From Bacillota bacterium (GTDB lineage: Bacteria; Bacillota; Clostridia; Lachnospirales; Anaerotignaceae): 62,317 nt of DNA. This document shows, one piece after another, positions 1-53,308 of the stretch; within the stretch, counting starts at the first letter, position 1; each line of letters opens with the position of its first letter. The notes below the pieces were generated by a model that saw only the letters and a list, made by a program, of their open reading frames with translations, had not been told where the DNA came from and ran no database searches. Position numbers and translations under genes: made by a program. The stretch spans positions 1 through 62,317 of the forward strand of contig JAFWDD010000068.1 of the NCBI GenBank assembly GCA_017534115.1, given 5' to 3'.

Positions 1-290
1 CGGGCTTTCAGCCCTAATGAAGCCGTCCCCTATGGGGACTAATTTCGGTTAGAATCCGACAAGCGGATTCAGGTAAAGTGCTTCGCACCGGAAGGCGGAA
101 TTTGTTGGCTATAATATAAATTGCAGATAAATCCGATTTGAGACAATAACCTTCCCTTGCATAATACACGGGTCAAGGGGCGAAGTCCCTTGCGGATTCT
201 TAAGGCAGAGCCTTAAGCGGGTTCTCAGGGCAGAGCCCTGAGCCGCCGGAGGCATATGGGGCAGAGCCCTGAGCCGCCGCGAGGCACAGT
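1..290. repeat. Mosaic hairpin repeat array, copy 1
   Basis: This gene-free stretch is built from short inverted repeats. At the left edge are units such as CGGGCTTTCAGCCC and GTCCCCTATGGGGAC. Then come the GAATCCG/CGGATTC and GTGCTTCGCAC hairpins and an AT-rich spacer. The block starting TACACGGGTCAAGGGGCGAAG (166 onward) follows, with GGCAGAGCC and GGGCAGAGCCC triloop hairpins up to the GCCGCCGGAGGC units. The same order recurs at five other intergenic sites in the window. No ORF with an RBS was seen. The array ends before the yhbY promoter. Confidence 0.85.
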
Positions 291-43031: not shown

Positions 43032-43065
43032 TTCGAAACGTAAAGCTTTGTAAAAAACTTAAATA

Positions 43066-43605
43066 TAGCCGATTGCTTTCCCTTGCATATTACACAGGGT
43101 CAAGGGGCAAGGCACCCTGTGGGTGCAATGAAGTTTGCTTCGCAAATGAAGGAATGAAGCCGTTCCCTTCGGTCACTAATGAAGCCAGCTTCGCTTAAAT
43201 GATTCGAAAACATGGAGTTTTATGAAGAAATAATATTTAGCCGGTAATTTTCCTTTGCATATTACACAGGGTCAAGGGGCAAGGCACCCTGCGGGTGCAA
43301 TGAAGTTTGCTTCGCAAATGAATGAATGAAGCCGTTCCCTTCGGTCACTAATGAAGCCAGCTTCGCTTAAATAATTCGAAAACATGGAGTTTTATGAAGA
43401 AATAATATTTAGCCGGTAATTTTCCCTTGCATATTACACGGGGTCAAGGGGCGAAGTCCCTTGCGGATTCTTAAGGCAGAGCCTTAAGCGGGTTTTTAGG
43501 GCAGAGCCCTAAACGGGGTTCTTAGGGGCAGCGCCCCTGAGCCCTCGGAGAGCGGGTTTTCAGGGCAGAGCCCTAAATGGGGTTTGGGGCGAAGCCCCAA
43601 GAACA
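43066..43605. repeat. Mosaic repeat array, copy 3, with a 172-bp tandem repeat
   Basis: Three TACAC(A/G)GGGTCAAGG landmarks occur at 43091, 43263 and 43435, exactly 172 bases apart. The first two units hold TTTGCTTCGCAAA, CCGTTCCCTTCGG and CCAGCTTCGCTTAAAT sections and are nearly identical. The third switches into the common GGCAGAGCC / GGGCAGAGCCC / GGGGCAGCGCCCC / GGGGCGAAGCCCC hairpin string. It ends 3 bases before the rho stop codon. It fills the space between converging genes, and no ORF with an RBS was found. Confidence 0.88.
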
Positions 43606-48754: not shown

Positions 48755-48900
48755 TCAGGGTAGTGCCCCGAACCCTGCTCTTTTCCGGGGTCCCCGAAAT
48801 GCTGGAGCGGAACAAAGTGCAGCGGAAGCATTTTGGGGTTGAGCTCTGCCCCAAGGCCCCGCAAGGAACTTCGTCCCTTGACCCGTATTTTTTGTGGGGA
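48755..48900. repeat. Mosaic hairpin repeat array, copy 4 (inverted orientation)
   Basis: Read on the minus strand it is the same TACGGGTCAAGGGACGAAG block as elsewhere, then GGGGCAGAG split by a 62-bp palindromic insert (48782-48843), then GCCGCCGGAGG. It lies upstream of the DUF5721 gene. Confidence 0.82.
48782..48843. mobile_element. Nested palindromic insert, flanked by CTCT duplication
   Basis: The insert has CCCCGAAATGCT on the left and AGCATTTTGGGG on the right, with the centre GGAGCGGAACAAAGTGCAGCGGA approximately. CTCT (AGAG on the other strand) is on both sides (48778-48781, 48844-48847), in the same array position as the insert at 2622. Confidence 0.6.
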
Positions 48901-49095: not shown

Positions 49096-49312
49096 AATTG
49101 AAATTTCAGGTGCGAAGCACATACACGGGGTCAAGGGGCGAAGTCTTATCCCAAAATGCTTTCATTACACTGCGTTTCACTTCAGCATTTTGGGAACCCC
49201 GAGCCTTGCGGATTCTTAAGGCAGAGCCTTAAGCCGCCGGAGGCGCAGCCCCTGAGCCCTCGGAGAGCGGGTTTTCAGGGCAGAGCCCCTAAGCCCTCTG
49301 AGAGAAAAAGAG
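49096..49312. repeat. Mosaic hairpin repeat array, copy 5
   Basis: The GGTGCGAAGCAC start is followed by TACACGGGGTCAAGGGGCGAAG, split by a palindromic insert at 49146-49203, then GGATTCTTAAGGCAGAGCC, GCCGCCGGAGGCG and CAGGGCAGAGCCCC hairpins. It ends ~10 bases before the MBOAT gene. The stretch 48916-49095 between arrays 4 and 5 is AT-rich with nothing recognised. Confidence 0.83.
49146..49203. mobile_element. Nested palindromic insert, third copy
   Basis: The ends CCCAAAATGCT and AGCATTTTGGG are inverted around a ~23-base centre. It interrupts the GAAGTCCCTTGCGG unit of array 5. No clear target duplication is seen in this copy. The insert is related in its centre to the other two. Confidence 0.55.
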
Positions 49313-52767: not shown

Positions 52768-52854
52768 ACTGATTACTTCCTTATTAAATAAATCTGATTT
52801 CTCCCTTAATTATATATCCCAAAACTGCACAATGCAACAGGAATGTATAAGCTA

Positions 52855-53308
52855 AATTGACCTGCGGTCAGCTAAATTTGCCTGCGGCAAGCTAAATTCC
52901 TTCGGAGCGAAATTGCGCTTAAGCGCAGCTTAGGTCAGAATCCTCCTGAAGTCGGATTCAATTAAAGTGCTTTGCACCGGCACCGTAAAGGTGCAGCTAA
53001 ATTCGGCTTTCAGCCGAGCGAAATTCCTTCGGAGCTAAATTGTGCTTCGCACAGCTAAATTCGCCTTTGGCGAGTTCAGGCCGGAATCCGCTTTGCGGAT
53101 TCAATTAAAGTGCTTCGCACTGAAACAGCGTATTTTTTTGTCTTAAATTTCGATTTTCGGTAAGTGTACTTTTTGTTCGATAACCTTACTATACTTACTA
53201 CACGGGGTCAAGGGGCGAAGTCCCTTGCGGGTTCTTAGGGCAGAGCCCTGAGCCGCCGGAGGCATAACGGGTTCTTAGGGGCAAAACCCCTGAGCCCTCG
53301 GAGAGATT
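52855..53308. repeat. Mosaic hairpin repeat array, copy 6 (most complete)
   Basis: This array shows the logic best. Linkers AGCTAAATT or GCGAAATT join hairpins of different sequence: TGACCTGCGGTCA, TTGCCTGCGGCAA, TGCGCTTAAGCGCA, TCGGCTTTCAGCCGA, TGTGCTTCGCACA, TCGCCTTTGGCGA. Two rounds of the GAATCC/GGATTC and GTGCTT[CT]GCAC units follow, then an AT-rich spacer and the TACACGGGGTCAAGGGGCG block. It stops ~20 bases before the glnS promoter. No gene was found in it. Confidence 0.9.

Follow-up and report, generated by a model that had tools for sequence, protein, structure and literature searches.

The window, a 62,317-nucleotide stretch from a Bacillota bacterium genome (1.86 Mb in 91 contigs; assembly 95% complete), carries intergenic arrays of small hairpins joined by short linkers, followed by a second section of hairpins of another type. 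Below, G000 is this genome, other G numbers are the compared genomes and L numbers are loci. The features are as follows.

1 to 290, + strand: tail of an array (AATGAAG at 16) and second section, cut off at the contig start
2339 to 2460, + strand: linker-hairpin array, with AGCTAAATT at 2374 and 2435, AGCGAAATT at 2396 and 2415, and AATGAAG at 2354
2580 to 2752, + strand: second-section hairpins, one with a 47 bp palindrome (2626-2672) within its loop
43119 to 43370, + strand: AATGAAG-linked hairpin array, two tandem copies with a period of ~172 bp
43440 to 43605, + strand: second-section hairpins (GGCAGAGCC types)
48755 to 48900, - strand: second section only, with a palindrome insert at 48792-48838
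49096 to 49312, + strand: second section only, with a hairpin holding an inserted AAATGCT..AGCATTTTGGGA palindrome
52850 to 52927, + strand: linker-hairpin array, block 1, with AGCTAAATT/AGCGAAATT linkers and hairpins TGACCTGCGGTCA (52858-52870), TTGCCTGCGGCAA (52878-52890), TCCTTCGGA (52898-52906) and TGCGCTTAAGCGCA (52914-52927)
52928 to 52994, + strand: middle module, GCTTAGGTCAGAATCC..GGATTCAATTAAAGTGC..GCAC plus GGCACCGTAAAGGTGC, opening into the second array block, in the same order in L005, L010, L022, L026 and L029
52995 to 53073, + strand: linker-hairpin array, block 2, with hairpins TCGGCTTTCAGCCGA, TCCTTCGGA, TGTGCTTCGCACA and TCGCCTTTGGCGA
53079 to 53122, + strand: module GGCCGGAATCCGC..GCGGATTCAATTAAAGTGCTTCGCACTG, its order kept in other copies
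53200 to 53308, + strand: second section, GGGTCAAGGGGCGAAGTCCCTTGCGGG plus GGGCAGAGCCC-type hairpins

The two blocks at 52850-53073 contain eight AGCTAAATT/AGCGAAATT linker starts (52850, 52870, 52890, 52906, 52995, 53017, 53033 and 53053). The stems listed for 52855-53308 by the sequence-only reading (TGACC/GGTCA, TTGCC/GGCAA, TGCGC/GCGCA, TCGGCT/AGCCGA, TGTGC/GCACA and TCGCC/GGCGA) were all located between the linkers of this array. When folded as single-stranded DNA, 52850-53075 performed better than shuffled sequences on both strands (z -2.4 for + and -2.6 for -). The nearly fixed linkers described by the same reading were recovered here and at 2339-2460, but the array within 43066-43605 uses another linker, AATGAAG, which is the heptamer of this genome's only S23/IVP gene. 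The array at 2339-2460 lies immediately 3' of a terminator-like hairpin, which itself follows a gene ending at 2272.

The second section (GGGTCAAGGGGCGAAGTCCCTTGCGG, GGGCAGAGCCC and similar hairpins) comes after the arrays in constant order. It stands alone at 48755-48900 and 49096-49312, where hairpin-linker arrays had been claimed; only GGGCAGAGCCC-type hairpins without linkers are found there. At 1-290, also described as an array, only an array tail with a single AATGAAG is present, because the contig begins at that point. One of the second-section stems cited earlier, GGGGCAAAGCCCC, occurs at ~2728, but its copy near 53279 is imperfect (GGGGCAAAACCCC).

Several further observations concern the form of these repeats. 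At 43060-43420, the ~172 bp unit that bears the AATGAAG array is tandemly duplicated. An imperfect palindrome of 47 bp (CCC.AAATGCT..AGCATTT..GGG) lies inside second-section hairpins at 2626-2672, 48792-48838, ~49144-49190 and L005:1742-1788; at 2626 and in L005 it occupies the apical loop (GGCAGA^..^GAGCC), suggesting that this element targets the tips of hairpins. Window positions 1-120 carry the same array sequence as the end of contig C8 (L001, G000:C8), and the assembly breaks at these repeats.

Dispersed copies, the complete element and maintained pairing

Copies were counted using a strict unit pattern, AGCTAAATT-N3-20-AGCTAAATT, with the reversed pattern as control. The whole genome contained 32 strict units and no control match, while strict AATGAAG pairs numbered 174, making AATGAAG the commonest linker. 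The hairpin units, which the sequence-only reading had set apart from a normal interspersed repeat, are thus interspersed repeats that number dozens per genome. Such arrays were absent from all 392 genomes sampled from the same order, where the few pattern matches (1-2 per genome) were non-palindromic; sampled members of its own family likewise had no hairpin arrays, two of them giving one non-palindromic match each. The same linker was located, by a scan of GTDB species representatives, in numerous assemblies of Clostridia; most come from herbivore guts and bear the label Ruminococcus, Oscillospiraceae or Clostridia. The strict unit was counted at 2-160 copies per genome in 25 of them, with no control match. 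The compared genomes are mostly draft MAGs.

The copies in other genomes revealed that the window arrays represent one half only of a complete element. This comprises 3-4 linker-hairpin units, a centre (AAATTCG..), and 3-4 units with the inverted linker (AATTTAGCT), ~170 bp in total. The linker inversion at the centre was overlooked in the sequence-only reading, as were the S23/IVP partner gene and the Rfam Gut-1 match described below. In complete GCTAAAT elements (e.g. L203, L092 and L254), the linker and one arm of the outermost hairpin are together complementary to the centre (AAATTCGC or AAATTCGGC), so that this hairpin could face competition from a long-range helix. Of the oriented GCTAAAT elements, 16/33 had a hairpin of at least 7 bp starting no more than 10 nt from the right end, and 1/33 had one ending no more than 10 nt from the left end. 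Linker-to-linker pairing of the halves, as a ladder of four-way junctions, was rejected, since GCGAAAT variants were not accompanied (as judged by eye) by compensating variants in the opposite half.

To quantify pairing, right arms were re-dealt between cores of the same length. Across 256 distinct cores taken from the other genomes, Watson-Crick pairs made up 88.6% of arm positions, compared with a mean of 53.9% after the re-deal (sd 1.3, max 57.3). The six well-sampled slots of oriented elements (L1, L2, L3, R2, R3 and R4) were paired at 93, 75, 90, 98, 97 and 92%, each exceeding the maximum of 300 re-deals (77, 64, 82, 83, 76 and 89, respectively). Pairing is therefore maintained while the stems change, and the earlier statement that both arms change together was confirmed. 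This genome alone has 22 distinct cores in 45 units, 88.8% paired versus 62.5% re-dealt, and includes hybrid stems (e.g. TGCTC..GGTCA); because its distinct cores are few and some are hybrid, the window alone could not demonstrate maintained pairing, and it is the other genomes that do so. Hairpins are also exchanged as whole cassettes, with TTCAC..GTGAA in L092 at the position of ATTGC..GCAAT in L102, between near-identical neighbours. Either selection on structure or the palindrome-making copying process that had been offered as an option may lie behind the paired changes, although no result here requires the latter.

S23 genes beside the arrays and their linker classes

Several of the genes that flank arrays encode PF05635 (23S_rRNA_IVP, S23) proteins, annotated in NCBIfam as TIGR02436, four helix bundle protein. 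We know of no nuclease motif in S23. The solved homologues 2rld and 2gsc each have five chains per entry, and S23/IVP proteins are without known function (PMC4990558). S23 loci were collected using a purpose-built HMM, as a broad regular expression missed the V-W-Q-K subfamily. PF05635 was present in 18/18 array genomes tested, compared with 42/118 genomes sampled evenly across the class (Fisher 7.6e-8) and 0/14 control genomes. The GCTAAAT element was located just 5' of the start codon in 13 of the first 30 S23 loci. More generally, a flanking heptamer scored above all 40 dinucleotide shuffles at 74/109 distinct S23 loci versus 26/200 control ORFs (Fisher 1.6e-22); in 15 of the 26 control positives the heptamer was the array linker, many control loci having been drawn from contigs that bear arrays. 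The V-W-Q-K subfamily had flanking repeats in 4/18.

The array design at S23 genes, commonly four hairpins, a centre and three hairpins, is similar across linker classes. At L242, L314 and L349, the S23 gene lies between a 3-hairpin and a 4-hairpin half; these loci resemble circular permutations of the upstream form, which would fit a circular intermediate. In other S23 clades (L298, L302, L244, L245, L241 and L243), the gene's flanks hold plain inverted tandem arrays of heptamers (AATTAGG, AATGCAG, GTGTGGA and others) and no hairpins, which may be the ancestral form.

This genome's one S23 gene is located outside the window, at G000:C86:37377-37673 (locus L257), and scores 92 bits for PF05635 and 101 bits for TIGR02436. 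The protein, 119 aa long, is 73-77% identical to S23 proteins at AATGAAG loci elsewhere. The locus consists of a tRNA, a terminator-like hairpin, an AATGAAG array and the S23 gene, the array being upstream of the start codon and, in this intergenic position, not inserted in 23S rRNA. A 32-bp segment of the L257 array recurs in dispersed copies. Among 57 other genomes of the family PF05635 was found in three, one of V-W-Q-K type, one behind simple repeats and one below the cut-off; since the gene is rare in the family and the arrays are absent from its sampled members, in this lineage the two occur together. For the AGCTAAATT arrays no matching S23 gene was found in this assembly, and they look like orphans. 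Nor was a matching gene found in the assembly of G409, which has the most AGCTAAATT units (160), or in G458 and G508, which also have AGCTAAATT arrays. Arrays with the ATATCGA linker are dispersed too, their matches reaching 207 in G415, a genome with the S23 type that corresponds to this linker; for the hairpin-type ATATCGA units in G405 and G409, that type was not found.

The linker class follows the S23 clade. Proteins beginning with MAESIMLDKAKDF are associated with GCTAAAT, those with MRNDEL..QSM with AATGAAG, those with LREETINFAIEISD with ATATCGA, and those with TIKELAVELTVE with ATATCGC. The linker was shared by 91% of protein pairs at 80-100% identity, by 62% at 60-80%, and by 0-2% below 60%; the association is sharp among related proteins, with few sharing pairs below 60%, and could in part reflect shared descent. 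In a reciprocal test of 25 S23-bearing genomes from the class sample, strict AGCTAAATT arrays were found in 3/4 with a GCTAAAT-class S23 versus 2/21 others (p 0.016). The fourth GCTAAAT-class genome, G436, has an array in a looser form at its S23 gene. Two loci of G402, L264 and L303, encode S23 proteins that are alike over most of their length and differ mainly in the first 12 residues; their linkers are AATGAAG and ACTTCAC, respectively, and the S23 N-terminus may set linker choice.

Different arrays also occupy the same site. At one intergenic site within one genus, G473 carries a GCTAAAT array (L378) and G536 an ATATCGC array (L400); both are framed by a left extension (CAGTGAACGATTTAGATG) and a right-hand large hairpin of similar kind, and the gene downstream is the same. 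At a second site G473 again has GCTAAAT (L380) and G538 a half array linked by AATTCAT (L405), here too within a shared frame of left extension and right-hand hairpin. A joined-flank test and a comparison of orthologous sites in one genus yielded no clean empty site with a target duplication, because array absence always coincided with changed synteny.

The position of the arrays raises the possibility that they form a regulatory leader of the S23 gene, with dispersed copies marking sites where S23 regulates other genes. The median distance of 27.5 nt from the last linker to the ATG, and the occurrence of one design 5' of S23 genes in many clades, would fit a leader. At loci with linkers on both sides, however, the gene lies between inverted arrays in 16/23, so that at these 16 loci the arrays flank the gene instead of occupying a leader position, and the dispersed copies, many of them adjoining terminators, show no evident constant relation to the genes downstream of them. 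We therefore consider a leader function unlikely.

Loop types, strand polarity and Rfam Gut-1

When elements were read on the AATTTAGC strand, GNA accounted for 81/135 triloops and GNNA for 48/89 tetraloops, and a C-G closing pair was present in 143/172 perfect hairpins. A d(GNA) triloop with a C-G closing pair is a known stable DNA motif (PMC5815330). Tandem mismatches were GA/GA in 19/27 cases in the GCTAAAT class, on the same strand as the GNA loops. The folded strand thus has a fixed polarity. In 6/7 further linker classes scored, c-GNA-g or c-GNNA-g loops with C-G closure lead or co-lead (ATATCGA, ATATCGC, ATTTCAC, ATTTCAT, AATTCAT and ACTTCAC); all of these except AATTCAT, which has a mix, share the preferred loops and, where countable, the GA/GA mismatches. 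For the CTTCATT (AATGAAG) class, a simple symmetric folding test gave almost no foldable cores and loops were not scorable, because its hairpins sit offset from the linker.

Part of the element has already been catalogued as an RNA, since the best arrays of this genome match Rfam Gut-1 (RF01706). Down to weak scores, Gut-1 matched at 14 places in this genome's arrays, the best being L028 at 57.7 bits (gathering score, 50 bits), with L030 at 48.7 bits. The window array scored 38.7 bits (E 2.9e-4) in block 2 (L018:1645-1716) and 31.4 bits in block 1 (L018:1500-1569), both below threshold, and a scan of the window at the gathering threshold gave no match. Weinberg et al. listed Gut-1 as a likely ncRNA and described it solely from metagenomes of the human gut (PMC2864571). 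It shares with the arrays three small hairpins, UUCG-type loops and GUGAAAU linkers; the arrays differ in belonging to a DNA element that is dispersed, uses several linkers and has a partner gene. We take Gut-1 to be a slice of this element, covering three hairpins.

Selection at the RNA level, with the arrays acting as a structured noncoding RNA, is the reading that the Gut-1 scores and the published classification favor. The mismatches and loops point elsewhere. Single mismatches were G.T in 12 cases and A.C in 15, indicating no RNA wobble bias on either strand. The third base of GNNA loops (A20, C14, T12, G2) lacks the purine preference of RNA GNRA loops. Moreover, the loop signature lies on opposite strands in the two halves, and copies occur in both orientations, 5' or 3' of genes. 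An RNA is accordingly quite unlikely in our estimate, and we infer that selection acts on the fold of a DNA single strand.

Paired changes with no G.U bias could also be produced without any function, if quasi-palindrome correction by template switching kept the hairpins perfect and ordinary recombination spread them, and hybrid stems do occur. Such a process leaves unexplained the linkers that track protein clades, the position adjacent to S23 genes, and the loop and GA/GA types common to the linker classes, making it very unlikely as a full account.

Dispersed palindromes with a constant flanking motif, and Y1 genes in 7/12 genomes tested, recall REP elements mobilized by a Y1 transposase (RAYT), but we rejected this partner as highly improbable, since array-rich G398, G402, G405, G403 and G421 have no Y1 gene, the 12 Y1 loci have no linkers within 1.5 kb, and the hairpin foot bears GC[TG]AAAT or AATGAAG linkers in place of the GTAG or CGTC that defines REP hairpin tags (PMC3733652).

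A proposed repeat-plus-protein system and its relation to known systems

Taken together, the arrays are probably REP/RAYT-like dispersed copies of a modular DNA element, with the S23 four-helix-bundle protein as cognate partner. The data suggest a repeat-plus-protein system that was previously undescribed. Most complete elements consist of three to four heptamer linkers each followed by a hairpin, a centre, and three to four hairpins each followed by an inverted linker, and lie directly 5' of, or flank, an S23 gene. S23 would bind the arrays when the GNA strand is single-stranded, reading the heptamers by sequence and the hairpins by shape. By analogy with TnpA-REP, this binding might maintain or spread arrays beside transcription terminators. 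The AATGAAG arrays of this genome would then be served by the S23 gene on another contig (G000:C86). Both mobility of the arrays and S23 binding are proposed here from sequence comparison. A bolder version, which we offer tentatively, is that each S23 lineage recognizes its own 7-base word in single-stranded hairpin arrays, copies arrays next to terminators, and can swap words at one site.

The arrays upstream of PF05635/TIGR02436 genes, and the tracking of protein clade by the heptamer, are the new elements of this work. Clade-specific DNA words in high-copy hairpin arrays would give a testable role to the S23/IVP family, which is widespread (found in over a third of the class sample above), and would place Gut-1 in context. 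If the proposal is true, bacterial genomes would have a second means, not based on HUH enzymes, of keeping dispersed palindromic repeats together with a cognate protein.

Comparison with known systems sets the arrays apart from CRISPR, which was rejected because the "spacers" here are self-complementary hairpins and not unique non-palindromic sequences. PADLOC defence families gave no hit for three S23 proteins. Within the library of papers searched, nothing relevant on the linker string, or on S23 with repeats, was found except the paper on the Coxiella IVS (PMC4990558). In that 23S rRNA IVS, tandem heptamers (GACAGAT) are located just 5' of the S23p start, and the element was called selfish (PMC4990558). 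The protein family is the same, and in both cases short tandem repeats directly precede the S23 start; the arrays here, in contrast, are intergenic, numerous and mostly without a gene. The REP/BIME/REPIN repeats with TnpA-REP (RAYT), which has been proposed to maintain or spread them (PMC8266576, PMC3116915), resemble the arrays in that they are dispersed palindromes in high copy number, occur as inverted pairs, have a single gene flanked by its cognate repeats, and have diverged together with the protein. They differ in that the partner here is an S23 four-helix bundle and not a Y1/HUH nuclease, and that the arrays contain 6-8 hairpins with diverse stems.
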